A stretch of DNA of 64,000 nucleotides from Cephalotus follicularis. Taxonomy: Eukaryota; Streptophyta; Magnoliopsida; Oxalidales; Cephalotaceae. The DNA lies in NCBI GenBank assembly GCA_001972305.1, contig BDDD01003336.1:44217-108216 (forward strand). Reading direction: 5' to 3'. Within the stretch, counting starts at the first letter, position 1. Each line of letters begins with the position of its first letter. The position numbers and the translations under genes were made by a program. Below the pieces are notes generated by a model. It made no database searches and had not been told where the DNA came from. It worked only from the letters and a program-made list of their open reading frames with translations. Of the stretch, positions 3,136 to 40,525 are shown in pieces.

Positions 3136-3965
3136 TGTACGCAAATGTATGGCAACCTTAAACAAGTAATTAATTTGTTTGCGGAAATAACAAATAAAGA
3201 TTATGAAACTAAACAATCAAAAATCAATCAAACACCTTACAAGGGTTCACTCCCCTCTTTTACAATGGATGATAAGAAAAATTGGTTTTGTGTTTACAAT
3301 AACCTCTTGAAGGTTGGATATGAAAGTGATAGCTAGTTACAAGCTTTGGATATGAAAGTTGTAAACAAAAGCTTGATGTTCTTTCTCTTTGTAAATGTGC
3401 AAGTTGAGATATTGAGATTGGATGATCAAATGTTGTGTTCCTTCTTATTTGATCTTGTTTCTTGGCTTGTATTTATAGCTTTCTTCAGATTATAGCCGTT
3501 GGTGAAGAAATAAAGCCGTTGGAGAAGTCATGGAAGTTGTTGCACAAAGTTGGCTCTTTAAACAAGTTCTGTCATTGTTCCAGCCGACCAAAGCGTCGAC
3601 GGTATTGCCTAAAGCGTCGGCGCTTAGGTTACCGTTAGGAGTTAAATTTGAATTTTCTCGTTTGGACGTTGGCGCTTAAAACTGGGAGTCGACCGTTCGC
3701 ATAAAGCGCAGATGCTTTACTTATAAGCGTCGCCGCTTTGAGTACTTCAACTAATTTTGCGCTCCACTGGTTTAATCGGCAGACGCTTTGTTCTCAGGAG
3801 TAGACTTTTTGTCATAAAGCGCTGACGCTTTGATCAAGACCGTCGGCGCTTTGCTCTGTTTCTGCACTTCTTAATTTTATTTATTTATTTTCTTACACAG
3901 AAAGTAGCAAAGTTAAATACAAATTTGTAATCATTAAAACTTAGGATTGAGACTAAAAGTCAACA
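3136..3965 (-). repeat. 5' LTR of gag-only element 1
   Basis: TG...CA-bounded LTR next to the initiator-Met primer-binding site. It is shorter than the related LTR at 35302-36326. It contains the word cluster GCGTCGACGG (3593-3602), GCGTCGGCGC (3614-3623) and several more to about 3850. Confidence 0.85.
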
Positions 3966-6280
3966 TTTACAAAGGTTAAGTCTATATACAAAAGCCACAT
4001 TGCTTTACATATATATACAAATCAAAATTTCCTATAGCATAAAAGTAGATCCCCGATCTTCATGTCATAGGTCCATTGCATCCTCAGCTCCCAGCTGTCT
4101 AGCTCCTCTTAGCATCCTGCAAAGAGTTACAAATGCTAGTCTCACAACCTGAGTCCAAAAACCCAAATTGAACTTACATTGTAAGATAAGTGGAATATAA
4201 AAATATGACGGTACCTAACCCCGAGGCACCATCTGCAATGGAAGCAAGAAAGTTTTAGCAATTTCTCTTCCAGTATCCTAACTTCCAACACAGAAGCAAG
4301 ATATCTCCTTAATAAGCTATTTAATCCTCTAATGAATGGTATCCCCAAACCACATGAAATGGTTCCTTTTCTTTCTTCCTTATGAGCTCATTGCCCTTGG
4401 AACTGGATCCTCTTAATCCACCTATCCCTGAGGTTGTTCCAGAAGAAGGAATATGTGTCACAGATTGTTTTGATCCAGACTGGTCCAAAACTACCTTATC
4501 AGTCCTCGACTGTGTGCCAAACAACTCCTCAAGTTATATCAACACGGCACATAAGGTATGTGAAGAATACATAGCGTTTTCCAGTTTGGCATCAAGGCAA
4601 CACTCGCCATGTATTGAGGTCTATGATCGTCATCCCACCACTTAGCCACCCTGGCGTTGTGATGGTCAGATGCATTGATCTCTAATGTAGGGGGTATTTC
4701 AGGCATAACATGAACAATTCTCATGCTCGTGAGTACTATGCGCAACCATTCAAAAAAAGTGGATAATGTCGCTTAAGAAAATATAAAACATGCCAAATAA
4801 AGGTGTTGTCTGCCATTCGAGTATATAAAATATGTTATCTAACAACCTATTAGAAGAAACAATAGAGTAATTTAGCAGATCATTTGATTTTATGTTATTA
4901 CCATAACTCTTGGCCTTTAGTAATTATGGCTCCTCCCACTATTCTAATCGTATCCCACACCTCCATATGGAATTCAGGAAGCACCCGCTTCCTAGTGGGG
5001 ATCGAAATCTATTTCGCATTTTATGGTCTTCGCTAAGCGAACAAACCACAATACCAAATAGGTAGGCTTTCAAGGCCAATTTACATTAGGGCCTCGCCCT
5101 TGAAATGCAAGATCAGATACATCATTCGGTCTCCCAACCCATACAATCCACCGCTGAGCGGCGCTAATAGTATAAACTCGGTATAAGTCCGTACCCACAA
5201 TCCTCAAAGAAATGAACCAGTTTTGATATCCACTAGGAGACTAGTCAGAACACCAAAACTTAGTAATTTCCTTCAAGTGCTACCCCAGTACTGAAGCTGA
5301 ACAGTAATGGTCATAAAGGGGACCTCTGCTGAGCAGTGCCATCCCCAATATATCCATACCCTTCAACAAAGATTATGGAAGGACAACGATGGAACACCCT
5401 TGTGCCCCACCCCTTATGGACTTATTAATTCACAATTGGAGGAATTTGTGGTCTCATCAAATTTTAAATTACCAAAGCCGTTAATTAATAGATTTTATCT
5501 TCCAATCCATTTGAAAACGGCTTATTATGCTTGACGTGTTTGGATTGTTTGCAAAAAGTAAACATCCATCTCATGCATCCTATGATCCACATAGAAATAA
5601 AAATGGCCTGGCTAGGGATTAAATCTATGAGCGATCACACGAGCGTATGTGATCACTCGGTCTCCTAGGTGAACTATTCAAAACTACTTTATTACAAAAT
5701 GCACCATGCATACATGGCCTTCACTTGGTCTTGCATTTTCCTTGATCATCCTCTTTAAGCTCCTTTGCAATTATTCTCTTCTTTTATTTACAAAAATGAA
5801 ATTTACAAAAAATACATTTAAAAATAAAGAATAGAATACAAATGGAGGGAGAGAGAGAGAATTACACAAAAAAGGAAAAATGGTGCACGCAGGCAACCAT
5901 ATTACAGACCAAATAAAGTACACAAAAATAAAGCAATTTAAACCATCCACAAAAGAAACCAAAAGCTAGGTTCAATCCCATTGCCTACCATCATGCATAA
6001 GACATTTAAATCTATATCCACAATAGAAATAAATAAACACAAGCAATTTCAATTTCCGATGACCAATCGAAATAATCACAAGATTACCGATATTCCAATA
6101 AAACTCTGACTAAATTATTTAAAATCTAGTTTCCCTCGGTTTAAGAAAAACTTAATTTTATAAAACAACAATGGGAATGGAATTTAATTAGAATCTCAGC
6201 TACTTTAATCATTCCAAAATAGTCACCAAAAATTGAAATTAAAGTCCAATTGATATTAAAACGGATCGCTCTGATACCAC
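3966..6280 (-). mobile_element. Non-coding internal region of a long-LTR copia-type element (LARD-like)
   Basis: This stretch lies between gag-only element 1 and the LTR at 6281-8005. Its right edge holds a primer-binding site in reverse complement (CTCTGATACCA at 6269-6279), so it is the start of an internal domain read leftwards. I find no gag, protease, integrase or polymerase motif in any frame; the short ORFs (for example 5307-5534 plus and 4539-4745 minus) match nothing I know. A large retrotransposon derivative without coding capacity, or a chewed-up internal domain with captured sequence, would both fit. Confidence 0.5.
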
Positions 6281-8005
6281 TTATTGGAACCTGGGAGGGG
6301 GCCAGGTCGATTTTGGGTTTAGGATGCAAGTGTGTATAAATTAAATTTTTCAAAACACTAAGACTGCAAGTCAAGGTTCAAAATTACATCTTACTACCAA
6401 AATCTATGCGCCTAGGCTTCCCGTTTAATATTCAATCGAACAAAATGAAACAATCAAGCACACATCCACTTAACCGAAACCAATTCTGTAAACATTAAAA
6501 ACATAAGATTAGGAACCATACCAACGTTGGAGGCTCCATCACGTTCCCACTACGAGCTTGCCGAAGCAACTGCCGGTTACCGGCTCCACTGCCAGTTACT
6601 GGCCAGTCCATGAAAACTTTCAACCAAGAAACCAACGGACTCCAAAAATTTTGATCGACCCATTTCTGACGGAGACGCAACGAGAAACGCCCCGGAACAA
6701 GGTGAACAGCGGCGGCGACTCACTGAGTTCGGACTCAATGCAACTCGGTCAACGCATCATTGACCGACGGAGACATATGTGGACGACAAACACCCGATAA
6801 AGCCACTGGTGGCCGAGACTCGGTGAGACTCGGCCTGGAACGTGGCGAACAGATGGCGGCGAGTCAACCCTCTTGGAAAAAACAGGATCGCCGCGACACC
6901 GCACCCCCACAACCGGCACCTACAAAGCACGGCCAACACAACCCAACGCAAGACTCGCCGTGAATCGGCACGGAACGCCGACTCACGATGCACAACGCAC
7001 TGAGTCGTCAGGGTCGACTCAGATGCGCGAAACTGGCCGAAAATGCACCGAAAAACACCTAGTCTAAGGCCAAAATAGGCAGAGCCAAGCATGGCTCCAC
7101 CTACCGAGACACCGGCGGCGGAAGAGAAGCCGCGATAGTGGGTGACGCATAAAGCGTCGGGCAAAACCAAAGAGAGAGAGAAGAGAAAAATGGGAGAGAA
7201 AGAGAGAGAGGCTTACCATGGATGAAAGCCGGCCCCTTTCCTGGACCACCGACGCCTACGGCATCGTCTTCTCTGGCCGGAAGTGCCATCCAGGCGCTGG
7301 CGCACGCAACACGTGCGTCTCCCCTGTTTTGCGCGTTACCAGGCGCAATGGCGTGTTCAATGCCAAATTTTGACTTAGTAAAAAAAACTTTCTCTTTTAT
7401 TATATTAAAAAAATTTCTCTCAATGTTTTAATTATGTGCACCCCGCACATGGTATGTTAAACATACTCCCACTGTGGTTTCTCTTAATATATCAATTTGA
7501 CAATACGGTGGTAAATTTTAATAAATAAATAAACCACTAATGCCAAATTAATATATACTAGTTAAAACTAGATTTCCCGCCAAGCTAGCATGTGTGTAGC
7601 ATGCATCGCTTTTCCAATAATCAGGTGGGACCCGAAAGCCCGGTTTCAATCTAGTACGACTATAAATTTCTCAGAACATCCCAGGAGTTCTGGTACGACT
7701 ATTAAAACAGCCCCGGTGTGAATCCCATCACCCCCCGGATCCGTAGAATCAACTATGTCTATAAGTCGACATCCGGTTAAACCAGTACTTTATCTAGTCA
7801 ACGGCATATGTGTCATATATCCTACGTCATACTTGTCTCCGACCGCGACCTAGGGTTCAGAATAATGTCACCCCTACGTAAAGTCGAGATAACTATAAAT
7901 TCACATACGCATCGAGACTTTTGGCAAACTTCCCCGAAAACCCCGTTTCCAGTCTGCCTAGACCTGATCAGGGTTTTATGAGTCTCAACGGACATAAATA
8001 ATATA
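6281..8005 (-). repeat. Long copia-type LTR, copy A (incomplete)
   Basis: Homologous along most of its length to the LTR at 26025-28566: shared blocks include the start around 6285-6420, the GC-rich middle, and the stretch 7550-8005 with its run of C residues before GGATCCGT. The inner end sits next to an initiator-Met primer-binding site. The homology stops near 8005, where Athila-type sequence begins, so the outer third is absent. The middle carries words built on GACTCGG/GAGTCGAC. ORFs inside it (such as 6757-7170 minus) look like by-products of GC-rich repeats. Confidence 0.7.
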
Positions 8006-9085
8006 GAGCTTAGTACCAAAGTTCATTTTAATTTTGAAAGTATGAATAAATATTGATATACTTAGAAAAAATAGAAACCCCATAGGAGAAATAATAAAAA
8101 TTTTATTTTCAAGAAAAAGAAAAGGAATACATCTCAAGGTAGGAGTTTGTGCAAAAATTAAAAAAAAAATGAATGAATAAAGAGACTAATCTTTTGTGTT
8201 TTCAAGGTTTCATAAATCTTAGTAAGGGGGAGGATAAAGAATTAATGTTCTTGCATATATAAAAAAAAAGAGAAAAGAAAAAAAAACATATATATCTATT
8301 TTACCTATTTGAATTCAGTCTCGGTCTGTAGCCTATTTGATTCGCGTAAGTAAGCCTTAGGGGTGTTCTACATCAAGTTCCTTAAGGCCAACTAGCTTAA
8401 GAGTAACTAGTCCAAAACTCGCTGCATGGGTCTTATAGAAAGCTTAAGAGACTAAGACATTACACGAATTTAAGTTGGTAAAATGGATATTGATCTCATG
8501 TGAAAATTGTAAATTCTAAATCTACTTATTAATTTGGGTGTCTGGTGTATGCTCCATCCATGTCATTCAAACCAACAGTAGTGGAGGAATGAGTTCGATA
8601 AAAGAGAAAGAAAGAAAAAAAAATGTATGAGTAATAAGGTTATTTGTCTGACTCCAAAGTAAGATTTTATGTTACTGAGAATACATATCTTGATTGGAAA
8701 AAAGTGTATAATAAAAGAAAGAGAACAAAAAAATTCAGTGAGACTCCTTAATTGAGATGTGTTTTGACTCTAGAACTTGGAGCAAGATAATAAAATTCAA
8801 GTATGGGGGTTGTCTATTAATTTTTAAGTGGAGATACATTTGACCTATTAGCAAATTTATGATGAACTGAATTTTGTGTGTTTATTCTTTGAAAACACTC
8901 ACGAGACAAAACTCGTTCACTACGGACCCCTAGGGGTTTAAAGGCTTATTGCATATGCTAAATGCAATCGTGATTCCTACGAAAGTGAGTTATGGTTTTT
9001 GTTTTTATTTTTTATTTTTCTTTTCTTGTTTTAGCTTTCTATTTCATTTGCTTGAGGACAAGCAAAGTTTAAGTATAGGGGTATT

Positions 9086-10591
9086 TGTTTAGCATAAAAA
9101 TGTGTTATTTTTAAGGATCTATTTATGACGTTTTTATGCTTGGAACAGATTACTTTGGTTGTTTTATTTGATTTTCAGGTGCAAGGCCAAAAAGATAAAA
9201 ATGCATTAATAATACTCAACTTGGCGCGAATAGAAGACAAGAAGATCAAAGCTTGATGAATTGACAATTTTCTGTAGAAAACAGAGCAAAGCGTCGACGG
9301 GTTCCACTTAAGCGTCAACTCTTAAACTAAAGCGCCGACGGAATTTTTGTAAGCGTCAACGCTAGAGCCTTTGACAAACTCCTATAATTCTCTATACGAA
9401 ACCATCGACGCTCAGAAGAAAAGCGTCAACACTTAACTATGCTTAATATTAAAGTCAACGAGTAAAGTGCATCTCACCTCAGCCAACGCTTCACACAAAC
9501 CATCGACGCCAAGAAGAAAAGCGTCGACACGTACGATGCATCAGGGAACAAAATTGTAAAGTTTTTAGAGTTTGATTCAAATTGTAATATTTTCCTTTAT
9601 TAGATTAATTAGGTTAGATTATTTTTCATTTTTATACATGTTAAACAGTATAAAAGGAGGAGAGGCCAGCCATAAACAATAGCCACCCTCTTAGCCGTCT
9701 TTCTTCTTCTGTTTTTATAATCTAATTACCATGTTTTGTAGCTAAACTTTCAAGGTTTTTAGGGATAGAACAAAGCTATTAGATGTATTGATTCAACTCC
9801 ATTAATAAAATCCTTGAATTTTTTATTTGTTCTTCAATTTTTTGACATCTCCCACACTTTGTATGTCTGATTAAAATCCACATACACTTTGTCTGTAAAG
9901 AAGAAAGTTGTTGGATAAATGGTGTTATTAATGAAATCAATGGATGCCTACTCATACGTTTTGTCACGCTGAACACACTCCGTATAGACCTATCATGACT
10001 ACTCATACGATTTGTCATCATTGCCACACTCCGTATAGACATAGCATGACTACTCATATGATTTGTCATCACAGTCACACTCTGTATCGACCTAGCAGTT
10101 GTTGATTATTAAGGATTGAGCAATCAAGTAAGTGAGTTTTTCAATATAATCTATCGTGAGTTTCTATACCCTAAAACCAATTTATCTTGCAACTTTTATT
10201 CAGTTTATTTACTATTCTGCCAGTTTAACCATTTGCATGCGTGATTTCTTGTTTTGATTTTTGTTAGTTTCGCACCAGTACCCGTAACCGTCGATGCCTA
10301 CTTCGTAAGCATCGACGCTTTAAGTGTTTTCTTCAATTTTCGTTGATGCTTTACTGCTTTCAATTATAACCGTTGACACCTTCAAGCAAAGCGTCGATGC
10401 TTTTAGCTCCTATTTAAATAGTTTATTTTTGCATATTTAGGAGTAATTTTTGATAATAGTCCTTAATTTTGTATACTTCGCCTAGGTTGGATAGATTAAA
10501 AATAATTTAGCATGTTTCCTAGAGTTCGACCCGTTACTGCACAACCGTGCACTTGCAGTATAAATTTAATTCTTTTCAAAATTCGTGAACA
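9086..10591 (+). repeat. Athila-type LTR 1
   Basis: TG...CA LTR of about 1.5 kb. It shares with the LTR at 15052-16639 the first ~60 bases, a block from about 9725 to 9930, a three-unit tandem repeat, and the 3' end with its GTTCGACCCGTTACTGCA-like passage. At the position where the other LTR has CATGC words, this one has GCGTCGACGC-like words (9291-9530). Confidence 0.8.
9945..10099 (+). repeat. Three tandem ~51-bp units inside Athila LTR 1
   Basis: Units start near 9945, 9996 and 10047, each beginning like TGACTACTCATACG and ending like CCGTATAGACCTAGCA. The same three-unit array, diverged, lies at about 16088-16245 in the second Athila LTR, so it predates both insertions. Confidence 0.8.
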
Positions 10592-12663
10592 CTAGTCAAT
10601 ACCAATCCTGCTCCGCTTCTGGAGACACAGGATGACCCATCAACTGATAGCTTCAATAACCCCTTCTAATTTTTTGAGGAGACCTTTTCCATACACTCCG
10701 TAGGGGTATTATCTCCCACAAAATTAGCCAGGACCTGTGATTTTATTGTTGGTATGACTTCGTACTTCACGACGTACTCACCCAATTCGACAGACCACTT
10801 GAACAATCTTCCTTACATGTATGGCTTTGCTAGCACTTGACTAAGTGGCTTGTCAGTTAACATTTTGATAGTATGGGCTTGAAAATAAAGCCTGAGCTTT
10901 CTCACCGCAATGATCAGAACATAGGCAAACTTTTCTACCTCTAGATATCTCCCCTCAGCATCATTCAAGGCCTTGCTCACATAATATACTGACCTATGAA
11001 TTTTATCATCTTCTCTGACTAGCACTGCACTCACTGCGCCTTGTGTTACCGCAAGGTACACATACAAGTCTTCCCCATCTCTTGGTTTTAATATCAGAGG
11101 AGGGGAACCCAGGTATTCCTTCAATTTCTTGAAAGCTGCTTGACATTCTTCCGACCAAAGAAACCCCTTGAGGTCACTTAACACCTTGAAGAAGGGAAGA
11201 CATTTCTCTGCTGATTTAGAGATGAACATGCTTAAGGCTGCAATTTTGCCATTCAATCTCTACACATCTCTAATAGATTGAGGAGGCGTCATGCTCTGAA
11301 TCGCGGAGTTCTTCTCTAGGTTGGCCTCTATTCCCCTGCTGGAGACCATGAACCCAAGAAATTTACCAGAAGTGACTCCAAAGTGCACTTGGAAGGGTTG
11401 AGGTGTATCTTGTATCTTCTCAATACCTCAAAGGTCTCTTCCAAGTCTTTAATATGAGGACACCTCACTGGTGACTTGACGAACATATCGTCAATATAAA
11501 CCTCTATATTCCTCCCGATTTGAGGTTCAAAAATTTTGTTGACCAACCGTTGGTAGGTCACTCTGGCATTTTTTAGTCCGAAGGGCATGACTTTGTAACA
11601 ATACATACCCCTATCAGTGATGAATGTTGTCTTGTTCTCATCTGGTTCGTACATAGGGATTTGATTGTTACCAGAGTAAGCATCCAAGAAGCTCAACATT
11701 TTATAGCCAAAGGTTGCATCGACTAATTGATCAATCTTCGGGAGGGGGAAGTGGTCTTTCGGACAAGCTTTGTTAAGGTCTGTGAAGTCTACGCACATAC
11801 TCCACTTGCCGTTGGCCTTCTTGACTACGGTTCACCAGCCAGTCAGAGTATTGCACTTCCCTTATAAAAACCGATTGTAATAGCTTATTGACTTCATCTG
11901 CTATCACATGTTGCCTTTCGGGGGCGAAGTTTCTCTTCACTTGCCTGGTCGAAGGCCACATCAGATCCACACTTAGCCTGTGCATCATTGACTCTAGGCT
12001 TATCCCAAGGACCTCCTCTGCCAACAAGGCAAATACATCGCTATTATATTTTAGGAACATTATTAGTTCCTCTTTCTCCACCTCTCCAAGTTGGAAGTCA
12101 ACCTGGAATATTTTCTCTTCATCACCTTCCTCCAAAGGCACCTGCACGACCTCCTTCACAGGCTACGGATGCTCAGGCTCCACTTCTCCTCTGAGCTCCA
12201 TGTTTGCTATGGGAAGGGCTTTTCCCTTGCCCTTGCCCTTTATGGAAGTCTGGTAGCACTACCTGGCAACCTGCTGGTCTCCTCAGACTTACCCCACACC
12301 AAACCTGGTCAGGAATTTTACCAATAAGTGCCTTATCGACACTATTGCCTCCATCAAGTTCAATCATGGTCACCCAATTATAGCTTTGTACGGGCTTGGA
12401 GCATCAACCAACAGAAATTTCATCTGTACTTAGGTATAGCGTGGGGTCGCGCCTACAACGACTGACAAATCGATGGATCCCAGAGGATGGACCATCTCTC
12501 CCGTAAAGCCTACAAGAGGAGTCTTCACTGGCCTTAGCTGGTCGGCGGGAATCCTTAACTGATCAAAAGCATGTTTGTAGAGGATATCCGCCGAGCTCCT
12601 ACTATCAGTGAGAATTCTCTTCATAGTGAATAGTTCTACTTGAAGAGTCACTACCACAGGATC
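10592..12663 (-). mobile_element. Fragment of a Tat/Retand-type Ty3/gypsy element (protease to RNase H), broken
   Basis: Minus-strand pol fragment closely related to the full element at 43962-59839. Read leftwards: a protease-type region (12430-12657, with DSRSSADILYKHAFDQL), the linker before reverse transcriptase, reverse transcriptase (11328-11900, with YCYKVMPFGLKNA and VYIDDM), and RNase H (10813-11256, with AVSAVLVRE and YYVSKAL). Both LTRs, gag and most of integrase are missing. Several breaks (about four or more). It is bounded by an Athila LTR on the left and a copia-type LTR block on the right. Confidence 0.85.
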
Positions 12664-14470
12664 ATTGTGAGGGAGACATTGTCAGATAGGGTGACCGACA
12701 AGCCATTGGATAGACTTTTGTATCAAACCTATCTGTGTATATAAACAGTCTTATTCCAGATATAAGACATGTGCTATTTTATAATTTATATGACAATATC
12801 ACTTATGTTTTATCATATAATCGAAGTAATTAATAAAAACCTACTTACACTTGTGATGCCCTGACATAAGGTTGGATGCCAAGTATGGAGGCAGTGAGAT
12901 TGGCTACCTTATTCCTTATGTCGAATTAGTTCTAAGTCATAGGTTCACTTTGTGGGCATTAGTGAACTGGATAAACTTGCGCGTATGTTGCCTGCTTTTG
13001 GAATTGGAGAATGGATTCTCTTACTACCATCTGTGTTGCGATACTAGGGCAAATACGGGATGCGCGCTGGGAGCGTGTACACTGAACTGGACACGCGTAG
13101 GAAACTTTATTTGGATAGTCGCTACTCTCGTGTGAGTAATGACTCATACTTGTTGCGGTTGTGTATAAGTGTTAGTCACTTAGCGAGTTCTTGAACTCGT
13201 CTGGTCCTTAGACCTGAGCGACTGCTCTATATTGTATGAAGACGGTTATGCTTTGATCTCCACCTTACCCAATTCTTGCGCAGGGGTGGCAATCGGGTGG
13301 TATTTGGGTATGATCGAATCTATACGAATATAAGCGAGTGTACAATATGGGATTGTCACACCTTAGCGAAGGTGATCGGCCCTATTATGGTCTGATTGTA
13401 CTTTGGATTTATGAAATCCTTGGCAGAGATTGAGGTGGACTGAAAACTAGATTTCCGGAGAGTCTACCAAAGGTCCTAATAATAACAAGATATTTTATCC
13501 ACTGTGGTATTATCTAGGGTTCACACATATCCTTACCCTAGACCTAAATCGGGGCTAAGAATGACAAAGGATTATAGTACACGCGAACCGACGACTTAGA
13601 AAGTCTTGCGTTACGGCGGTGTGTAATAAATTATGAGAAAATTAATTAGATTAATTATTCATCTGGATAATAATGGATATTATTCAAGGAGCATTTAAAT
13701 AGGTTTGGAACTATTTTGAATGGCTTTACCAAACCCTAGGGGTATTTCAGTAATTTATGAACACCACCGATTCTAACCGAGATTTTAAAAAGTTCCTTGC
13801 CCGATAATGATTTCTTCATAAATATGTTGGACATATTTAAGTCTTGCTGAAATTTATAAAATCAAATATTGGTTAGGTAGATTTTTGCAATTTGTGGTGA
13901 CATATTTGTTTGATCTTATTTAATCAATATTCGAAGGGATATGTGGCATCACTAAAATGAGTTGGACTTATTTTAAGTAAGAGTTGGACTCAAAATGTTT
14001 AACCAGCCTTCTAAGCGTCGACACCTTTTGGAAAAGAATCAACACTTAAACCCCGTATAAGCGTCAATGTCTTTTGGTGAGGCGTCAACGATTAGCCTGT
14101 CTAAGCGTCAGAACTTTTGGAAAAGCATCGACGCTTAGAGAGGTAACATGGGTGCCCTACGTGGGCACACGACATGCGCACGCTTTCTCACTCCCACTCC
14201 CAGTAATTTTCTCTCATCATAGCTTAATAAGGAGCACGTTTATATCATGTGATCATGTTTCCTTAGAGGGTCATGATCAGTGAGTGGAGGAGTGGGTGCA
14301 ATTAGAGAGAGAGAGAGAGAGAAATCGACTGGAATAAAACATTGCAGATAAGTGGGATTTTAAAGTGTAAGAGATTATTAGGCAAAGAGTCGAACTTGCC
14401 GCACAATGAGTAGATCCTTTTATAGATTAGTTCACCAAGTTTTGAAGCTAACCTAGGGTGGATTGTTATT
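12664..14470 (+). repeat. Diverged copia-type LTR block
   Basis: Mostly non-coding DNA with scattered similarity to the LTR at 32094-32950: both contain GTCATAGGTTCACT followed by a TGAACTG passage, an ACCTGAGCG passage, and GGGATYGTCACACC. They are too different to be the two LTRs of one recent insertion. Boundaries are uncertain and I see no clear primer-binding site at its right end. It carries GCGTCGACGC-type words at 14015-14134 and a (GA)n stretch near 14305-14325. Confidence 0.45.
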
Positions 14471-14888: not shown

Positions 14889-15051
14889 TGTAACACCCCG
14901 CGCCCGCAGGGCGGACACATGGCATTACTCTCAATCAAATACACAATACAATGGTCGGGACTAGCAATATAAAAATGCGAAAAAACTTAAAACTTTACAA
15001 TACATATCATTGTGCGGAAGATACAATACAACAATCCATCCATACGGTACA

Positions 15052-16639
15052 TGTTTAGCATAAAAAAGTGTTATTTTTAATGATCTATTTATTATATTTT
15101 TATGATTGTAATAGGCTATTGTGATTGTGTTTATTTGATTTTCAGGTATTATGTCTATTATTTCAGAATAAGAGAAAATGAAGCTAAAATGCTACTTTTC
15201 GAGTTAAAGTGGTTTGAAGTCAAAGATCGGTTAAAGAGTGCACTCACTTAAATAAGAGAAGTCAAAATTTAATGTTCAAAAAATATTGAATATTGAGCTC
15301 ATTTTCTTTATAAAATTATTTGGAGCACTTTTTATTCTTGGACGGAGTCATTCTGAAACTCCGATGAAGAGATATTGCAAGAAAACAAATTTTGAAACAC
15401 GTAAAGCTCAATGATTACATCATCATGACATCACTGTCCATTTTTATAACTCTTTGCCGCTGCATTGTAACAATGCTCAAGTCTAATCCATGCGTCACAT
15501 GCATCAGCCGGCCTTGCATCTCTCACATGCCATCACCATGCAAAGCCCATGCGACCATGCGCATATGAGCCATCCAACAAGCCACAAGAGTCCATGCAGT
15601 CCATGCAACCAATTAACACATGCAGAAATCCATGCAATGCATCAAGCCTCATGCAAAACGCTTCAGTCGTCAATCCAGAGCCCATGCGTCACGAGTCCAT
15701 GCGCATCAAATCTTCAGCCAAACAACCAGCGCCACACGTTTTAATTGCTTAGGTCTTAGTAGGCGACATATATATATATATATTGCAAAAGGAAGAAACA
15801 TGCAGTAGAGAGATACAAAAATGCACCAGCCGCCTCTCTTATTTTCTTTGTCAGTTATTAGTTTAGTTTTATTTAATGTTTTGTAACTAGTTTCATAAGG
15901 TTTTTGGGTTAGAACAAAGTCTAGATTGTCATTGTTTCAATTCCAACAATAAAAATCTTTTGAATATTTGATTTGTTCTTCAATTTTTCTGCTTTCACAC
16001 ACACTTTGTCTGTTTGATTAAAATCCACAAACATCTTGTCGGTGAAGTTGAAAGCTGGTGAATAAATGGTGCTTAATTCAATCAATGGAGTCTACTCATA
16101 CGGTTTGTCACGCCGAACACACACCATATAGACCTAGCATGACTACTCATACAGTTTGTCTGATTAAAATCCACACTTCGTATAGACCTAGCATGACTAC
16201 TGATACGATTTGTCATCACAATTGCACTCAGTATCGACCTAGATGTCGTTGGTTATTAAGGTATGCTCGTTTAATTAAAGTGAATTGTTCAATACAATCT
16301 ATGATGAGTTTCTATACTCTAAAACCAGTTTTTCATTATATATTTTCTTTAGTTTTATTTATTACTTTAATTAGTTTTAATTTGCACGTGTTATTTTCTG
16401 TTATTTTCAATTATTTTAGTCTGTTATTTTATTTTATTTATTTCTTGTCTGTTTTCAATTGTTTTATTATTTTTGCATAATTATGAGTAGTTTTTGATAG
16501 TTTATCTCAAATTTGGTATAATTCGCCTAGATTGAATAAATTATAACTAGTTTAACGTTTTCATGTGTTCGACCCGTTACTGCATGATCCGTGCACTTGC
16601 GGCTATAAATTTTAAAACATCATTCTTTTTACGTGAACA
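15052..16639 (+). repeat. 5' LTR of Athila element 2
   Basis: TG...CA LTR of about 1.6 kb. It carries a cluster of CATGC words (15488-15705), a short (TA)n at 15768-15783, the three-unit tandem repeat (16088-16245), and a very T-rich 3' third. Confidence 0.88.
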
Positions 16640-18408: not shown

Positions 18409-19995
18409 AGGTTGATTGTTCAATACAATCTATGGTGAGTTTCTATACCCTAAAACTAATTTTCCATTACATATTTTCTTTAGTTTTATTTATTGCTTTA
18501 ATTAGTTTTAATTTTCACGTATTTTCTGTTATTTTCAATTATTTTAGTCTGTTATTTTATTTTATTTATTTCTTGCATGTTTTCAATTGTTTTATTATTT
18601 TTGCATAATTAGGAGTGGTTTTTGATAGTTTATCTCAAATTTGGTATAATTCGCCTAAGTTGAATAAATTATAACTAGTTTAACGTTTCCCTGTGTTCGA
18701 CCCGTTACTGCATGATCCGTGCACTTGCGGCTATAAATTTTAAAACATCATTCTTTTTACGTGAACAGTACAACAAAAAACAAATCATTTACAATACCAA
18801 TCATTTACAATACAATATCGGACACGTCATGTCAATACATAAATCAAACTGTTCAATACAATATTACAATGAACTCTGTCAGATCCAGACGATCTCCTCG
18901 GTCGAAGAAATCTTCAATCCTTCGGTCCGCTGCTACTTGCTGCCCTACCTATGCCGCACACAAAATATACAACACAGCCCCACCCCGAAGGATGGGGTTA
19001 GCCACACTGGCTAAGCAGAAACCTCATGCAGCATGTATGCATGTACAATGTGCAATATTGGTGATAATCTATGCAATATCAATGTGCTGTGTACAATATC
19101 AATGCATGATATGGCAAATGCATGTGTACAATTGGTGATCCGACTACCCGTATGACAATGGCCTATAACAGAGCAAACGGATAGGATATATAACAATCAA
19201 TCAATGGTAGACACTCAATGGTGGTGTATAAAACACCAAATCAACCAATCAATGTCCTATAGAGCATGTGACCCCGGGTCAATACAATGTCAATCAGTTA
19301 GCAGTGATCAATCCCACAGAAGATAATCTTTCAAAAATGGTGGGAGATCTATCTATGTTTCTAAGACTAATCAGGCCCGGAACTCATAGATCTTCCAACC
19401 TATGGCTGGGCCAATGCAATCTCGATGAGCTACAACTGAGGGAGCTAAGGCCGCAGGGAGCATCAATCCTCAATCAATCAATAATGCTCGTAAGCACGAC
19501 AATACAATAGATGAAACAATGCAAAAAATGAAACGATCGACGGAATAGGTGGACATAGTCAACAACCTAACTTGCCGACACGAATCATAAGGTTGCTCTA
19601 TAGGATCCATGCAATACAATCAATCATGTCAATACACTGTCAAAGCAATGTCAATAAGTGATGGTGTCTAATGGAGAGATGGGAATGTACGTCCAACATA
19701 CCAACTTAGACTCACATCACTTATGACTCAAGCAATCAATCAATGTGTCAATACAATCATTAAAACCGATTTCAAACACTTGAACACCTCAACTGAGGCT
19801 CCAGTCAAGTGACAATGTGAAAAGAAGTTGAAAACCAGCTTAAAGTAGTTAAAAACTCCTTTCAGTCTATTAGGCGTCGATGTCCTTGGAGAAAGACGTC
19901 GACGTATCTTTAAAACGGTGGAAAGACATCGATGTCTTTCTCTATTTGTATAGAGATCTGGCCGAAGAACATCAATGTCTTTGAACAAACAGGCG

Positions 19996-24213: not shown

Positions 24214-26461
24214 CTGTAACACCCCGCGCCCGCAGGGCGGACACGTGGTATTCTTCTCAATCCAATACACAATACAATGGTCGAGACTAGCAATATAAAA
24301 AAGCGGAAAAACTTAAAACTTTACAATACATATCATTGTGAGGAAGATACAATACAACAATCCATCCATACAGTACAACACAAAACAAATCCTTTACAAT
24401 ACCAATCTTTTACAATACAATACCGGTCACGTCATGTCAATACATAAATCAAACTCTTCAATAAAATATTACAATGAACTCTATCAGATCCAGACGATCC
24501 CCAGGTAGAAGAAATCTTCAATCCTTCGGTCCGCTACTACTTGCTCCCCTACCTATGCCGCACACAAAATGTACAACACAGCCCCACCCCGAAGAATGGG
24601 GTTAACCACACTGGCTAAGCAGAAACCTCATGCAACATGTATGCATGTACAATGTACAATATCGGTGACTATGCAATATCAATGTGTTGTGTACAATATC
24701 AATGCATGATATGGCAAATGCATGTGTACAATATGCGATCCAACTACCCGTATGATAATGGCCCATAATAGAGCATACGGATAGGAACTATAACAATCAA
24801 TCAATGGCAGACACTCAATGATGGTGTATAAAACACCCAATCAATCAATCAATGTCCTATAGAGCATGCGACCCCAGGTCAATACAATGTCAATCAGTTA
24901 GTAGTGATCAATCCCACGGAAGGTAATCCTTCAAAAAGGGTGGGAGATCTATCTATGTTTCTCAGACTGATAAGGTCCGAAACTCATAGATCTTCCAGCC
25001 TATGGATGGGCCAATACAATCTCAATGAGCTACAACCGAGGGAGCTACTGTTACCGTTAGGGAGCTACGACTTCAGGGAGCATCAATCGTCAATCAATCA
25101 ATAATGCTCGTCAGCACGACAATACAATAGATGAAACAATGCAATAAATGAAACGATTGACGGAATAGGTGGACATAGTCAACAACCTAACTTGCCGACA
25201 CGAATCATAAGGTCGCTCTATAGGATCCATACAATACAATCAATCATGTCAATACAATGTCAAAGCAATGTCAATAAGTGATGGTGTCTAATGGAGAAAT
25301 GGGAATGTACGTCCAACATACCGACTTAGACTCACATCACTTATGACTCAAGCAATCAATCAATGTGTCAATACAATCATTAAAACTATTTTCAAACACT
25401 TGAACACCTCAAGAGAGGCTCCAATCAAGTGACAATATGAAAAGAAGTTGAAAACAAGCTTAAAGTAGTTAAAAACTCCTTTCAGTCTATTAGATGTCGA
25501 TGTCCTTGGAGAAAGACGTTGACGTATCTTTAAAATGATGGAAAGACATCGATGTCTTTATCTATTTGTATAGAGATCTGGCCGAAGAACGTCGATGTCT
25601 TTAAACAAAGACGTTGACGCGATTCAATAAAAGTAGCCTGGGAATGCGCATCGATGTTCAACATCAATGTCTTTCATGGGGAGAAGACATCTCAAGGTAA
25701 AGACGTCTATGTCTTTGCTGCGGAAACAAAGATATAGCACTCTGAAGCGAACGACATCGATGCCCATGGGCTGGGGGTCGATGTCTTTGCTGGGCAGGGT
25801 CAATTTTTGTGCAGAAAACACAGCCAATCTCAGGTCAAAATTCAATTTAAAGCCATTCTTTGAAAACTAAGGGTTAAAATCAATCATTTGGGGTTAGTAA
25901 AACTTGTTACAACCTTTAAATTGCAGTTTTAATCCTTCTAGATAAATTAGATCAAGGATATCGATAAAAAACCCTAGTTTTTCAATTCTATACAATACAA
26001 TCATTCAATCAATAATGCAATTAATGTTGGAAACCTGGCAAGGGTTCCCGGTCAATTTGGTCCAAGGACGCTAGTGTGTATAATTTTAATTTTTCCAAAA
26101 CACCAAGACAGGAAGTCAAGGTTCACACTGACATCTTAGTACCAAATAGAAAAGCCGAGGATCTTCGTTTAATGTTCAATCAAACAATTACGAAATCAAG
26201 CATGCACGAAAAAACAAAAAACATAAGTACAGCAGAAATCATAAAACAAATGGGAAGCGACCATACCAACGTTGGAGGCTCCACCACTTTGCCGCTACAC
26301 GCTTGCAGTAGCAACAGCCGGTCACCGGTATCATCGCCGGATTTCAGACGGTCCACGTTAGGTCCGATCTTGACACCACAGGACTCCAAAAATTATGCTC
26401 TACCCATTGCTGACGGAGATGCACCGGGACTCGCACCGGAACACGGCGAACAGTGGAGGTA

Positions 26462-27216: not shown

Positions 27217-27223
<7 letters not shown>

Positions 27224-28765: not shown

Positions 28766-28766
<1 letters not shown>

Positions 28767-28807
<41 letters not shown>
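28767..28807. repeat. (GA)n microsatellite
   Basis: About twenty GA units inside the right LTR of the Tekay element, followed by more purine-rich sequence. Confidence 0.95.
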
Positions 28808-28810
<3 letters not shown>

Positions 28811-29039
28811 ATAGAGAGAGGGAGAAGAATGATAATATGAGAGGATAAGAGTAAGAATTGACTTATATAGTCAATTCAGTCAATTCTCTGAAACTCAGCC
28901 CAAAATCCCGACTATACATGCCTGCAATCAATACAATAACAATAGGTATAAGAATACCTTAATTCAATACAATTCGATACGGACCAATACGGTACCGTAT
29001 ATGCATGAACAGTACAAAGAGGGAATTCGGGTCGTCACA

Positions 29040-32950: not shown

Positions 32951-33068
32951 ATAGTTTAGTTTGTTATTTCCGCAAACAAATTACTTGTTTAAGGTTGCCA
33001 TACATTTCCAACAAGTGGTATCATAGAGGTTATCTCATAAGTCTTAATTGTTAGAGATATAAAGATCC

Positions 33069-34745
33069 ATGGCAAACCAAATGAACTTAAACATAGGACT
33101 AGAAGGATCATCCATTTCTAGACCTCCATTTTTTGATGGAAACAACTATAGTTTTTGGAAAACTAGAATGACCATTTTTCTACAATCCCTTGACTATCAA
33201 TTGTGGCATATTATTGTTAATGGTCCTAAGATGCCAACAAGAACAATAGAAGGAGTAGTCTCTCCTAAACCCGAAAATGAATATAATGATAATGACTTTA
33301 GGATGCTCCAATTAAATTCTAAAGCTAAACATGTTTTATTTTGTGCCGTTGGCCCGAATGAATTTAATCGGATATCTTCATGTGATACGGCTAAACAAAT
33401 GTGGGATTTATTAGAAATCACTTATGAAGGCACTAATCAAGTAAAGGAATCGAAAATAAGCATGCTTGTTCATGAGTATGAATTGTTTATAATGCATAAT
33501 GATGAATGTATAAGTGACATGTTTACTCGCTTTACTACTATTACCAACTCCCTTAAAAATCTTGGCAAATCATATTCTAACCAAGAACTTGTAAGAAAAA
33601 TTTTAAGGTGCTTGCCGAAGAATTGGACTCCAAAGGTGACGGCAATTGAGGAGGCTAAGGACCTTTCCACTCTTCCACTCGAACAACTTCTAGGCTCCTT
33701 GATGACACATGAGACAACAATGAAGAATCATGAGCATGTGGAAGTCAAGAAGAAGAAGCCAATCGCTCTAAAAGCCTCAAAGGAAAGCGAAAGTGATGAA
33801 GATGGAGATGTGGCATTCATAACTTCCCAATTCAAAAAGTTCCTCAAAAGTCGAAGGGGCAAGAAGGCTTTAAAGAAGTTCCCTCACAATGTAGAATCAA
33901 GCAAGAAAGAAGAGCCAACGTGCTATGAATGCAAAAAGCCGGGCCATTTCAGAAACGAATGCCCAAATCTTAAGAAGAAAGAGAAATTCATCAAAGAGCA
34001 TTCCAAGAAGAAGAAAGCAATGGTAGCTACTTGGGATGATAGTGATCTCTCAAGCTCCGATGAAAGTGGAAGTGATGAAGAAGTTGTAAATTTTGCTCTC
34101 ATGGCTATGGAAGATGATAAAAGTGGAGATGAAAGCGAAAATGAGGTAAATTTTACATTCGAAGAATTACAAAATGCATATGAGAACTTGTTTAAAGAAT
34201 ATGAAAATATTTGTTTAAAGAACAAGTCTTAAAAGAAAAATGCTATATCCATGTCTAAAGAAATTGATGATCTAAAAAGTGAGAATAGCAAGTATTTGAA
34301 TGAAATTGATTCTCTTCAAAATAAGAATAGCTTCTATGTGAATGAGATTGACATTTTAAATATTTCTTCAAAATTATCTATCGATTCAATGGAAGAAAAT
34401 GAAAAACTGAAAATTGAGATTGATGCTTTAAAGAAATCTTTTTCAAATTTTTCAAATAGTAATGCTAGATTGGATAATCTTTTAGGTTTACAAAGATGTG
34501 TGTTTGACAAAGCCGGTCTTGGCTATGAGGAAATGAAAAATGTCAAACATTTTAAAAATTTCTTTGTCAAGAGAGTTGAACCTCAAATTTGTTGCAATTA
34601 TTGTGGTAAAATAGGACATATTTTCACCTCTTGCATCTATAAAAATAATTTGTCTCTTGGTAAATCTAGAAAGATTTGGGTTCCGAAAGGAACTCTTGTG
34701 ACTAACTTGAAAGGACCAAAGTTCAAATGGGTACCAAAAGCTTAA
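33069..34745 (+). pseudogene. Copia gag (UBN2 type) of gag-only element 2, broken once
   Basis: Starts MANQMNLNIGLEGSS. A DUF4219-like start (PPFFDGNNYSFWKTRM), UBN2 gag core (AKQMWDLLEITYEGTNQVKE, CLPKNWTPKVTAIEEAKDLS), CCHC knuckle (CYECKKPGHFRNEC, near 33920), acidic Ser/Asp stretch, coiled coil, then a second knuckle-like motif (CNYCGKIGHIFTSC, near 34595) and the end KFKWVPKA at 34745. High similarity to the gag at 1400-3080 through the very last residue shows that the stop after KFKWVPKA is shared by both copies. About one interruption. Confidence 0.88.
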
Positions 34746-35301
34746 ACTATGTTTTGTAAGTGTACTTGAAGTCAAGATCAATCATTTCAAGCACATAACT
34801 TGGGGAGAAAGCTCTTATTGAGGGGGAGTATCATCTTATCCAACAATTGGTATCTCTCAAATTTTTATGATGATATTGATATTTTAAATTTAAAATGTAT
34901 TTTTATTTCAATTGGTATTCCTCTATTCTCATTTGATATCCCTTTAAAATTGCTTAATTGGTATCTTTTTGATGATAACAAAAAGGGGGAGAATGCTTAA
35001 TGCTTAAGGAAAATTTATAGCCCATGCTTAATTTATAGCTTATGCTTAGGGGGAGATAGATATGAATTGTGATATTAAATGAAAAGTGTGTTAAGGGGGA
35101 ATTCATGGAAAAAGGGGAGCTAGATAAAATTATTTGCATAATTCTCCTTTTTGAGAAATGAAAATTAGATGTTATATTAAGGGGGAGTTTATCCAAAGAA
35201 ATCTTTCAATTAGTATCTAAAGAAAACTTCTTTTTGTCTTCAATTGGTATAAATTTTTCCTTAATGTAGCAAATTTTTGTAATCATCAAAAAGGGGGAAA
35301 T
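34746..35301 (+). other. Non-coding region with repeated purine tracts
   Basis: Between gag and 3' LTR. GGGGGA/GGGGGAG tracts occur near 34818, 34984, 35048, 35093, 35112, 35180 and 35292; the last, next to the LTR, should be the true polypurine primer. The mirror-image region in copy 1 (791-1399) has the same design. Confidence 0.75.
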
Positions 35302-36326
35302 TGTTGACTTTTAGTCTCAATCCTAAGTTTTAATGATTACAAATTTAAATTTAAATTTGCTACTTTCTGTGCAAGAAAAGCTATGAACAAAATTAAGAAG
35401 TGCAGAAATAGAGCAAAGCGACGACGGTCAAGATCAGAGCGTCAGAGCTTTATGCCCAAATGTCGACACCAAGAGAACAAAGCGTCTGCCAATTAAACCA
35501 GTGGAGCGCGAAATTAGTTGAAGCACTCAAAGCGGCGACGCTTGGAGTAAAGCGTCTGCGCTTTATACGAACGGTCGACTCCCAGTTTAAAGCGTCAGAG
35601 TCCAAACGAAAAGAATTCAAATTTAACTCCCAACGGTAACCTAAGCGCCGACGCTTTAGGTAATACCGTCAACGCTTTAGTCGGCTGGAACAATGACAGA
35701 ACTTGTTTTAAAGAGCCAACTTTTGTGCAACAACTTCCAACACTTCTCCAACGGCTCTATTTCTTCACCAACGGCTAGAAACTAAATGAAGCTATATATA
35801 GAGGCCAAGAAACAAGATTTGAGGGACTTGAAGAACAACATTTGAACATCCAATCAAAAAGATCATCTTGCAAAACAAAAGAGAAAGACAACAAGCTAGA
35901 GTTTTACACTTTCATATCCAAAGCTTGTAACTAAGCTACAACTTTCATATCCAACCTTTCAAGAGGTTATTGTAAACACAATCCAAACCATTTCTATCAC
36001 CCATTGTAAAAAAGGGGAGTGAAACCTTGTAAGGTGTTTGATTGATTTGCAACCGGAACCCAAAATCAAGTGTAAGGTGGTTTACTTTGATTTGAACCCG
36101 TAAGCCGAAAATCAAAGGTTGCTAGTGGTAACTAGTGGAATCTCAAGGGGTTCTTGAGAAAGTGGACGTAGGCACGGATTTGCCGAACCACTATAAATTC
36201 GTTTGCACACTCTCTAACCCTTATCTCTTTAATTTATTTGTTCTTGTGTGATTGTTTATTTTCATAGTTTAGTTTGTTATTTCCGCAAACAAATTACTTG
36301 TTTAAGGTTGCCATACATTTCCAACA
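35302..36326 (+). repeat. 3' LTR of gag-only element 2
   Basis: Complete TG...CA LTR. Contains AAAGCGTCGACGCTT-type words from about 35415 to 35690. Supplies the reference for the shorter copies at 1-790 and 3136-3965. Confidence 0.88.
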
Positions 36327-36509
36327 AACAGGTTGATATGTGACGGGACACATATCATTTGGTGAAAGGACAAAATCATGAAAGATGTTGTTTGGCTAGT
36401 GAGTATTTCATTTGCATGGATTTAGGTCCGTGCAATGCCACGGTGAAATATTCCATGCAAAGACTTATTTGGAAATAGAAGAGGTTGTCATTTTCTTTGT
36501 ATTGGGCGT

Positions 36510-39363
36510 TGTCACACCCCGTTTCTGATAAACAACATTTAAGTGATAAAAGCAATCAATAAAACATTATCCAGCTTATGCAATTTTACGAGTAAATTAA
36601 AAACTTGTGGAAGCATCATATAAATAAGCAGAATTTAACGCGTATCACGCATCCCATACTACATGATGCCAAATTATTGCATAACAATTCTCAACATCAT
36701 TGTCGATTGCTCTCAAACGGAGCGTGAGTAATAATACAAAACAGAATACAATACGATATCCAATTAAAATATCCTCCAACCATGATAAACATATTATCCA
36801 AGTAGTACAGTTATCCAAAAAACAAAAAAACCGTTAAATGATTACAAAATATAAGAGAGGACATCCAAGTCTTCTCTTCAACCCGAGAGCGCACAACCAT
36901 AAAACCAGCTGCGTCAATCTGAAATAGTAGGGGGTTAGCCTTTGTCCTCACTCGGCTAAGTAGTAAAGTTATAAATGTAATTCGGGACCAAGATAATGTA
37001 TGTCATGTAATGTATGCAATTGTGGATGCAATACATAGTATTACATAATAATACATATATATGTGTGTATATACATGTATAACTACCAATGGAGCAAACA
37101 TGCCGATTGGCTACAATCCAACAATCCAATGAACAAGCTACGAAGGCACCGCCAACTCCTGGCCCAGACACTGTACTCCTCACTCCAGTCACCATTCTCC
37201 GGATAACTCGAAGCAGGTCACAATCCAAAGTCACTGGCACGACGGCTAAGTGACAACAACATGGGTTCCTCCAGCCAACTCCTGGCCCCAAGAGTCCAAC
37301 CCGCCTATTAGGGTCAGTGGCGACGCCACCACCGTGACTAATATGGCACAATCCAATCACAATCCAATTCAAGTCAAGTCATTTATAAAAATAAATACTT
37401 AAAAACATATATATTTATCAAAATATATAACAATCCACTTTTCAAGTAAAATATGCATCATAAAATACTTGTAACAAGATATTTGTTCAAATATGTAACA
37501 ATCCTTTTTAAACTGCATGTTTATTCAAAACATGCTTCAATCCCATTTTAAAATTGTATTTCGGTTGAACATAACGGTTTATACAAAATAAGGATTTACA
37601 ATAAATCATGTGTGCGACTCTTTAAAAATGATAATTTATTTTTAAAGCAATAACAATCCAATTCAATCCACAAACCAAATTTCAGACCCAATACAATACA
37701 AGTGCAATGCAATCATATGCTCAACGTGCCTAGAGTCGTATTTAGAGTCGTTTCAGAGTTAATGGGTCCAATTCGGGTCAAAACTATTCAAACCAGGGGG
37801 ATAAGCATCAACGCTTATCCTCTGGGCGTCGACGCTTATGTCCTCTAAGCGTCAACGTTTCGTGCATTCACACCCAGGCGCAGCAAAACTACAGTCGTAG
37901 ATGCTTCCCAAAGGCGTCGATGCTTTTGTGATATCAGGAGATATCACTTCACCAATATCGATTCCAGGGGGTATCCTACCCCCAAACTTACATGCAATCC
38001 CATAAACGTTCTTTCATAGTGTAAAACGCACAGCATGTTATCAATATACATAACCAAAACACAAATCATGAACTGGTCATGCAATCCACGAGTGAACATT
38101 GCATGCAACCATAAACAAATATTACAGTTATGCAATTGCTCATATGAAGCGTCGACGTTTTATTTAAGCGTTGACGTCTATTGTCATAACGCACGAGGGC
38201 GTCGACACTTATAACGTGAGCGTCAACACTTAGGCAGTCCAGAACAACCATTTTCATCGTCCCAACCAAGCCTGGGGAAAACATTCCAATATCATGCAAT
38301 TCCAATCCATTTATTCTCATAGATTACACATGCATAATCGGTTTGCATATCACAGTAATCATTCCGTCAATCCAACAATACAAACATTCCGAAAAGAGCA
38401 AGCAATTCATGCATAATATCAATGGCATGAACATTAACTTGAATTCCAATTTTGCATGTATAAAACCACTACAATTTCCCTACCTTTTGTCCCAAGTTAG
38501 GAACTATAAAGTCCACCTCTTTGTGTTCCAAAACCGGTCACAGCAGCCTCGATCTTTGTCCAGAAACTCCAAGCTCAAAGCTCAAAAGCTTCAAGGTTCA
38601 ACAATGGTGTTCAACAATGGAGGAAATCCTCTCCTCCTTCTCTCTACCGATTCCCACGGTGTTTCCTCACCAACACTCACTGGTTCGTTGTGGTTTCCTT
38701 TCTCTCTCCGTTCGTTTTAGGAAGGGAAAAGGGTTTTATGCATATTGCATTTTGTTTCCATCTGCATAAATGCCAAATTTACTCCCTCTTCATACCTGGT
38801 TACATAGCGCACCAGGTGTCTTCCTCCTATTGCATTGCCTGTTACATGCATCCACAAGCCTTCTCTTTTCTGTCATTCTAGTCTTGGCAGACCAGGAAAG
38901 CTGGGTGTATACTAAACACGTCTCCTTGTCATCTAAAGGCGTCTGAACGATGCCCCCAACATGCCCTACTGCGCACATGTTTATGTCAGCATCAGAGCGT
39001 GTCTGATATTCAACACTAAGCGTCGACGTTTACATGCAGGCGTCGACGCTTTGGTCATTTCCTGCAATGGCGTCGACGTGTTCCTTACACGTCGACGTGC
39101 ATATGCATGTTTGTTTGACGCGTGTTTTATTGGCTTAGGCATCAACGCTTCCCTCAAGGAGTCGACGCTTTTGGCTCAAGACAACGACATTTTGCTTTAA
39201 TCGTTTTCCTTAAACATTTCTTCAACATTCATCTTTCAAAATTCAACATTTATAATTGGGAAAACATCACCAAAGTCGAGAATTTCGCTACTCTCATTAA
39301 TTCCATAATAAGTTTACATTTGAAATTCAAATATTACAATATGCGAAAATCACGGGCGTTACA
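36510..39363 (-). repeat. Tekay-type solo LTR with perfect target duplication
   Basis: A 2,854-bp LTR. On the minus strand it starts TGTAACGCCCGTGATTTTCG and ends GGGGTGTGACA, terminal forms of Tekay/Del chromoviruses. GGCGT stands on both sides (36505-36509 and 39364-39368). No internal domain remains, so it is the product of LTR-LTR recombination. It contains two word clusters (37800-38235 and 39018-39175), including perfect GCGTCGACGC at 37826-37835 and 39040-39049. Confidence 0.9.
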
Positions 39364-40525
39364 GGCGTTGACGCCTTGGTTGTGCGTCTATGCCAATGTC
39401 TAGTTGGGCTGCTGGGCGTTGACACGAAGGGATTGCGTTAACACTGGAAAAACCAGTAGCTTTACACGTCGATGCCAATAGGGCATCATGTCGACGTCTA
39501 AACTAGAAAGTCCATTGGGCGTTAATGCTATGGACAGCATTGCGTTAACACTGGAAAAACCAGGGGCTTTGTGTGTTGACGCCATGGGGTTTTGGTGTTG
39601 ACACGAAGACAAATGACACTATGCACTTGTCTCATATTATACACGGCGTTGACGCCTTTTCGTAATGTGAGACACGTAAAAGTCGACGCCTTGTGTACAC
39701 GTTGACGCCAAGAGGAGAGAGAAAGTCTGCACTATAAATAGTTTGAGAGAAACTTGCTGAACACACTTGGACTCTTTTTTTCTCTCTCTTTCCTCTCGTG
39801 AGATCTCTTATACCTGCTCTCGTACGCGTTGACGCCTATCGCCTACACATCGACGCCTGTGTCACCTGGTGCGTCAAAACAGTCATTTTCAAGTCTCATT
39901 TCACCACTCAAACGTCATTATAGGTGGAGATAACTTACACACTGCTTCTTATTTTTACCTAGAGTGATTTAGACTAGGTCAAAAACCTTGCCTTGTCCCA
40001 TCCGTGGCTTGTGGAAGAGCTTGGAGCTTTTGAAGCTTTTGGGGGACAAAATGTAGAGGGAGCTATCTTGAAGGAATGAGTCTTCACCTCCGGTAAGAAT
40101 CCGTTTCTTCCATCTTCTTGTGGTGCCATGGCAGTGGGTGTTGATGTGGGTGTGTGAACCCTTGCCAAACCTCCATGGTTCTCTTGCTTTGTTTTGTGTG
40201 TCATCCCTTAGGGTTAGGGATGTTGTAGGTGAGGGTTGATTGGGCTATGGCTAGGATTTTGTGTGTTATTCCTTGTGAGACATTGTTAATGTCCATTTCT
40301 AGGGTTTATGGCAACCCTAGCTTTATCAACCTGTTGTGCCCAATGCTTGGGTTTATGGTTTTGGTTTAATTGGATGTTGATTAGATGTTCCTTGGCATTT
40401 ATTGGGACCTTTTGGACTTAGCTTAGGGAATCCCATTGCTTGGGGATTAACCAATTGAGAGAATTTTAAAGTTAATCAGCCCTTAACCCCTAATTCCGAA
40501 TTGTAAAGTCTTCCGCTGCGCTCGG

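Follow-up and report, generated by a model that had tools for sequence, protein, structure and literature searches.

Why should one short, CpG-rich palindrome recur in clusters in the long terminal repeats (LTRs) of unrelated retrotransposons? The question is raised by a 64,000-nucleotide stretch of the Cephalotus follicularis genome (contig BDDD01003336.1, positions 44,217 to 108,216), hereafter the window, in which a sequence-only reading had noticed clusters of the word GCGTCGACGC in several LTR families. We find the clusters in six families, referred to as A to F, which include a gag-only Sirevirus (A), an Athila-like element (B) and another Ty3/gypsy element (D). The answer that we favor, with a probability of roughly 0.6, is that the words form arrays of dimeric DNA-binding sites, acting as LTR enhancers or operators through which one host or element protein would switch unrelated retrotransposons jointly.

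Excess and specificity of the word

With up to two mismatches allowed, GCGTCGACGC matched the window 62 times, compared with 4.69 +/- 2.07 matches in a set of 100 dinucleotide shuffles, none of which exceeded 9. The two perfect copies, at 37826-37835 and 39040-39049, are where they had been placed before. The word was separated from general CpG richness by counting 16 classes, in which three dinucleotides, each CpG, TpG, or CpA, are joined by the single bases x and y. The word's own class (x=T, y=A) gave 76 matches versus 23.6 +/- 4.8 in shuffles and, with at least two intact CpGs, 38 versus 1.8 (largest shuffle, 8), whereas none of the remaining 15 control classes exceeded 7 matches at that setting. 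Five of these controls (G_G, C_A, T_G, C_G, and C_T; 5 to 7 matches) also rose above the largest of their respective shuffles, which indicates some general richness of the window in CpG words. The earlier observation of a word that recurs in several LTR families is upheld.

Individual words were called by a penalty score that charges 0.5 for each deamination-type change, with a cut-off at 2.5; words penalized by at most 1.5 are termed strict. At a penalty of at most 1, 38 words fall inside the 2,724 cluster positions and 1 in the other 61,267, a contrast that describes rather than tests, since the clusters were picked for holding words. No word at a penalty of at most 1.5 was present in seven further LTR-like repeats of the window, some of which are mutual copies.

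Consensuses drawn from 60 nonredundant words (capitals, at least 60%; small letters, at least 45%) read AAAGCGTCGgCGCTTT in family A (6 words), aAAGCGTCGACGCtTt in B (13 words), AAGCGTCgACGccT in C (4 words), GAAaGACGTCGATGTCtTT in D (8 words), AgGCGTCGACGcTT in E (14 words), and GCGTTGACGCC in F (15 words). The unit is closer to AAGCGTCGACGCTT in A, B, C, and E; the flanks differ in D and F, and the form ACRTCGAYGT predominates in the clusters at 19874 and 25494, as reported earlier. Flank similarity was 5.33 of 10 within families versus 4.61 between them, a difference of 0.72 against a maximum of 0.31 in 500 label shuffles. Among A, B, C, and E, however, the between-family similarity of the arms (5.26 to 6.04 of 10) comes near that within families (5.21 to 7.00). 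Left-right compensation inside the words was not found past the family consensus, which is neutral for the readings considered here. We know of no clear fit of the intact word to the plant sites that we weighed (E2F, TGA, WRKY, ARF, and RY). The longer arms are, together with a 21-bp spacing and the Sirevirus identity of the gag-only copia element, additions to the sequence-only reading.

Spacing, filler, and folding

The 85 called words give 73 successive spacings, of which 22 are exactly 21 bp, 39 lie between 19 and 23 bp, and 11 between 30 and 32 bp. When one copy per homologous cluster is kept, the corresponding numbers are 15, 30, and 10 among 57 spacings of 66 words, and the 21-bp spacing is firm. 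With the families pooled, the best period is 10.3 to 10.4 bp, and the mean cosine at 10.4 bp is 0.57 to 0.63 versus about -0.07 for words placed at random in those spans (P=0.0002, the lowest value that 5000 draws allow); families A, B, and C on their own gave P values of 0.0002 to 0.0022. This helical signal is mostly the 21-bp peak, and the mean autocorrelation of the word score rises above 0.06 at lags 21 and 50 only. Spacings of at least 25 bp taken separately point the same way with less certainty (P=0.0031 for strict words and <5e-5 for all words), and a complete 10.4-bp helical series is likely. A contrast array of CATGC in an Athila-like relative of family B was unphased (cosine 0.16, P=0.25). 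The sequence-only reading had left three options, a protein-binding site, a hairpin-forming RNA, and a homogenized or transferred word; because of the helical spacing, the first of these fits best, whereas the second gained little support from folding and pairing and the third is kept as a rival.

In the hairpin scenario, neighboring palindromes would pair in the transcript (a stem of about 14 bp and a loop of about 7 nucleotides) and feed small-RNA production or serve another RNA role, similar to what has been proposed for maize Sireviruses. The 21-bp spacing would indeed yield a compact hairpin, each of the 10 clusters folds 7 to 33 kcal/mol more stably than the mean of its mononucleotide shuffles, and one study describes a small-RNA excess over the maize palindrome clusters (PMC10760457). 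When only the filler was shuffled and the 10-mers were kept, z was negative in 9 of the 10 clusters, yet small in nine (+0.6 to -2.1), with -4.3 in D2; with 18-mers kept, z took both signs (+0.9 to -1.9). In five of the six families, the complementarity of adjacent words did not surpass that of re-paired ones (F, at P=0.037, is borderline, as is D2 in the folding; C offers only two pairs), the spacings near 31, 42, and 52 bp are left unexplained, and no part of the window matched Rfam at the gathering score. Taken together, the filler-shuffle folding, the pair test, and the Rfam result disfavor an RNA hairpin as the main function, and we regard it as unlikely.

The filler was compared after masking the words and 4 bases on either flank, for nine clusters on both strands. 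None of the 72 comparisons (8 of them intrafamily) reached P<0.01, the smallest P being 0.015, which is at chance level. We therefore reject a common ancestral block and confirm that the filler does not align between families. Leaving the words unmasked gives a 45-bp alignment of A with B (78%, E 7.7e-6) and a 43-bp one of A with E (79%, E 5e-4), the aligned segments being the word pairs themselves. Such alignments, and the longer arms common to A, B, C, and E, are what one would expect if gene conversion, recombination, or template switching had carried the word or a two-word module from family to family, with later decay of the filler, in which case a common regulator would be unnecessary. 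On the other hand, the masked comparisons show no trace of such a module, D and F have flanks of their own, and filler that was erased while the words were spared would still require selection on the words. Passage of one sequence between families therefore seems improbable to us as the explanation.

Likewise, an array could have grown in each LTR from a chance word, by local duplication or CpG-rich growth without any function. About 40 bp of one unit is repeated inside the F array, and Tandem Repeats Finder reported one short array within the clusters, at 37802-37857. That this was the only one at the score used speaks against such growth, which would, moreover, leave unexplained both the presence of the same word in several families and its specificity over the sister words; we consider it very unlikely.

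The LTRs that carry the arrays

The best-defined carrier is family A. Copy A2 is the LTR at 3136-3965 (-), the 5' LTR in the sense direction, as recognized from self-BLAST, its junction, and the gag domain; its partner at about 46-790 is 97.3% identical over the aligned 745 bp. The 16-mer that defines the Sirevirus junction between LTR and primer-binding site (PBS) (PMC2829016), CA-ATTGG-TATCAGAGC, is present at 3122-3137 (-) with 0 mismatches, its first two bases being the LTR end, and this is the only exact match in the window. Between the two LTRs, the sole open reading frame of at least 150 residues encodes a copia gag with a zinc knuckle, and four polypurine octamers AGGGGGAG lie at 793-1055 (-), the last tract running into the A1 LTR as AGGGGGAG-AT-TG. 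A second element, whose LTR A3 starts at about 35302 in the plus sense, likewise has four AGGGGGAG octamers upstream (34821-35187, +) and ends them with AGGGGGAA-AT-TG; at this element the exact 16-mer was absent, and its second LTR was not found in the window. Since it combines the zinc-knuckle copia gag, the exact junction, four AGGGGGAG tracts, and AT-TG after the last tract, family A is a Sirevirus. Its word arrays lie at 418-674 in A1 (8 words), 3593-3849 in A2 (7 words), and 35418-35675 in A3 (7 words). These numbers depend on the cut-off and compare with the at least 8 palindromic words per element by which the Sirevirus motif is recognized; the words are clustered and palindromic. In A2, 115 bp separate the TATA-proximal word from TATAAA at 3472-3477 (-), and in A3 TATATA at 35793 lies 117 bp past the array.

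Family B lies at 9086-10591 (+), and we adopt the name Athila for it from the sequence-only reading. Array B1 (9291-9530, 8 words) is followed by TATAAA at 9649, 118 bp downstream, and a second array, B2, lies near the 3' end of the LTR (10288-10400, 5 words). A related Athila-like LTR at 15052-16639 (+), 79 to 85% identical in its BLAST-aligned parts, has no word at a penalty of at most 1.5 (15053-16639 examined). The two LTRs align on both sides of a slot in the U3 region, the slot itself giving no strong BLAST alignment: B has its eight words there, whereas the relative has 13 copies of CATGC, presumably RY-like, in 214 bp (15489-15702). The B2 stretch, too, measures 170 bases in B versus 65 in the relative. 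Such a slot difference is what an exchangeable enhancer cassette would give. At 9944-10097 the B LTR holds a 51-bp tandem repeat (ATGACTACTCATACG...) in three copies, and the relative has this repeat too.

The remaining families are less completely delimited. Array C (14015-14134) holds 5 called words. Family D is represented by the LTR at 24215-25784 (-), whose upper limit was not located and whose word array spans 25494-25784, and by array D1 (19874-19978) in the other, incomplete LTR of the element. As RVT_1, RT_RNaseH, and Integrase_H2C2 domains lie between these LTRs, element D is Ty3/gypsy. Its left LTR is split by an Athila-like insertion between 14889-15051 and 18765-19989. Family E is a solo LTR (TGTCACACC...GGGCGTTACA) at 36510-39363, with arrays at 37805-37923, 38149-38229, and 39020-39168, flanked by the target duplication GGCGT (36505-36509 and 39364-39368). 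It sits inside the first word (GGCGTTGACGCC) of family F, the array of another LTR at 39364-39856 (+) with 15 words; plant LTR elements have been described as weakly preferring palindromes (PMC6911290). The copia label of C stems from the sequence-only reading, and the Tekay labels of E and F from that reading or from resemblance rather than from domains. D, E, and F may descend from a common Tekay ancestor, and the word positions of F and C are partly related through local duplication; with the choice of clusters also taken into account, the number of independent cases could shrink to three or four.

Overall, a TATA box follows the array at a short distance in A2, A3, B1, and F but not in B2, C, or D. 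In F, TATAAA is found at 39733, 24 bp past the thirteenth word, and two further words (39826 and 39847) lie beyond it.

Relation to known LTR motifs and a putative shared regulator

The sequence-only reading knew of no described class of this kind. That was wrong, because the repeated motifs (RM) of Sireviruses are in print. Bousios et al. 2010 report palindromic, CpG-rich repeated motifs for 13 Sirevirus elements, in 12 cases with a CGG-CCG core; the motifs cluster in the LTR ahead of the TATA box, and no binding factor common to them emerged (PMC2829016). The present arrays resemble them in having many palindromic CpG-rich words in the upper LTR, a TATA box downstream, and diverged sequence in between, and the Vitis motif CGGTCGACCG even has the inner GTCGAC in common with our word (PMC2829016). 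They differ in lacking the CGG-CCG core, the consensus being AAGCGTCGACGCTT or carrying the arms of the other families. Without this core, strict RM membership fails though the arrangement matches; the published motif of Tnd-1 also lacks the core (PMC2829016). Our arrays obey a spacing rule, and none was noticed in the accessible part of the Sirevirus description (PMC2829016). Furthermore, the Sirevirus motif was termed specific to Sireviruses and absent from classic elements, a comparison that covered Ty1/copia, while the present word also occurs in Ty3/gypsy LTRs (PMC2829016). Sireviruses being Ty1/copia hosts, D stands apart by its Ty3 domain set and B by its relative, whose LTR is followed by TGGCGCCGTTGCC. 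We take TGGCGCCGTTGCC to be a PBS of the Athila/Tat type. In other words, palindrome arrays are known from Sirevirus LTRs, and one word common to Sirevirus and Ty3/gypsy LTRs of one genome is what differs; we found no description of such a word in the open-licence literature. A literal search for GCGTCGACGCTT returned matches that, judged by title, were all microbiological.

Other systems offer partial parallels. The palindrome clusters of maize Sireviruses (Bousios et al. 2016, via PMC5311732 and PMC10760457) likewise occupy the regulatory region of the LTR; unlike the arrays here, they have been treated together with hairpins and small RNAs, and for Ty3 elements the 2023 maize study noted no evident peak in miRNA-like structure (PMC10760457). 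The heat-responsive elements of Brassicaceae COPIA retrotransposons (PMC5059998) are clustered host-factor sites gained independently in several LTR families, much as we envisage here, but their binder is the known heat shock factor, their motif is nGAAn, their families are copia, and both word and spacing are different. The target motifs of VANC in VANDAL transposons (PMC5735166) also form dense arrays, in which a short word marks noncoding regions of the element; there the word is another one, kept in one orientation, rare outside its own family, and bound by an element-encoded antisilencing protein.

Scans outside the window added no relatives. One genome pattern scan for the word gave 0 matches; of two pattern scans of viral sequences, one gave 0 contigs and the other 4, none of the four resembling a plant LTR: two are GC-rich (0.67 and 0.68), and in the other two (0.54 and 0.56) the matches fall inside repeats of a longer unit. 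In one viral contig (IMGVR_UViG_3300031669_000615, L001:11549-11716), we noted a short GACGACGCGTCAACG repeat array, for which no relation to plant LTRs was seen. Protein scans with the gag of A, a piece of the RNase H of D, and a piece of another reverse transcriptase from the window returned no relative. Elsewhere in the window, the segment 43192-43506 covers the first part of a host gene encoding a stress-gated cation channel of the OSCA1/CSC1 type (E 1.3e-41); a near-word at 43466 within this coding sequence looks like chance.

Several observations weigh against arrays of protein-binding sites. All counts come from one 64-kb window of a single genome. In conservation, the words do not stand out clearly from the filler: A2 and A3 differ by 8.2% in words versus 9.3% in filler, and within LTR pairs the words diverge more than the filler (7.1% versus 2.0% in A1/A2, and 8.8% versus 6.2% in D). 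B2 comes after the TATA box of B; C and D have no TATAWA past the array in the assumed sense; and in E, whose sense is ambiguous, TATAWA occurs on both strands but never at a distance like that in A and B. Finally, the phasing of spacings of at least 25 bp leans on F, without which P rises to 0.067 for strict words and 0.0034 for all words, and it is not significant in A to C alone (P=0.21 and 0.10, respectively).

In these same comparisons (A2/A3, A1/A2, and D), purifying selection on words over filler was not seen. Of the seven changes that separate the words of A1 from those of A2, five fall at CpGs and six are transitions, which fits methylated CpGs, and this CpG decay suggests that the words are methylated once the element is silenced. 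Possibly, the CpG-dense palindromes are mainly recognized by the host methylation machinery, in line with their three CpGs per 8 bp and with the CpG bias of the A1/A2 differences. However, a pure liability should disappear, and ordinary silencing also yields methylation and decay. A role primarily as a silencing target is thus rather doubtful in our opinion.

On balance, protein-binding arrays, with enhancers as the likeliest kind, seem to us a better reading than RNA hairpins or one common block. From the excess of the word, its clustering, its 21-bp spacing, the helical fit, the unshared filler, and the array position in A, B1, and F, we infer protein binding, activation, and one regulator behind the sharing. 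A putative host or element-encoded protein would bind the dyad CGTCGACG, flanked by AAG/CTT arms in four families. The bound sites would share a face of the helix and, in A, B, and F, would precede the TATA box, and transcription of unrelated retrotransposons would be switched together by this protein. This would be the same kind of device as the Sirevirus repeated motif, here in Sirevirus and Ty3/gypsy LTRs of one genome. More tentatively, and in our view with odds clearly short of even, one host regulator may govern a regulon of Sirevirus, Athila-like, and other Ty3/gypsy LTRs, with phased operator arrays gained by convergence or by exchange of cassettes into an exchangeable LTR slot.

If the same word does recur across superfamilies with helical spacing, the array would read as a platform for protein on DNA more than as an RNA structure. 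A single factor could then be searched for with a defined 14-bp probe, and unrelated retrotransposons of one host would converge on, or exchange, one switch.

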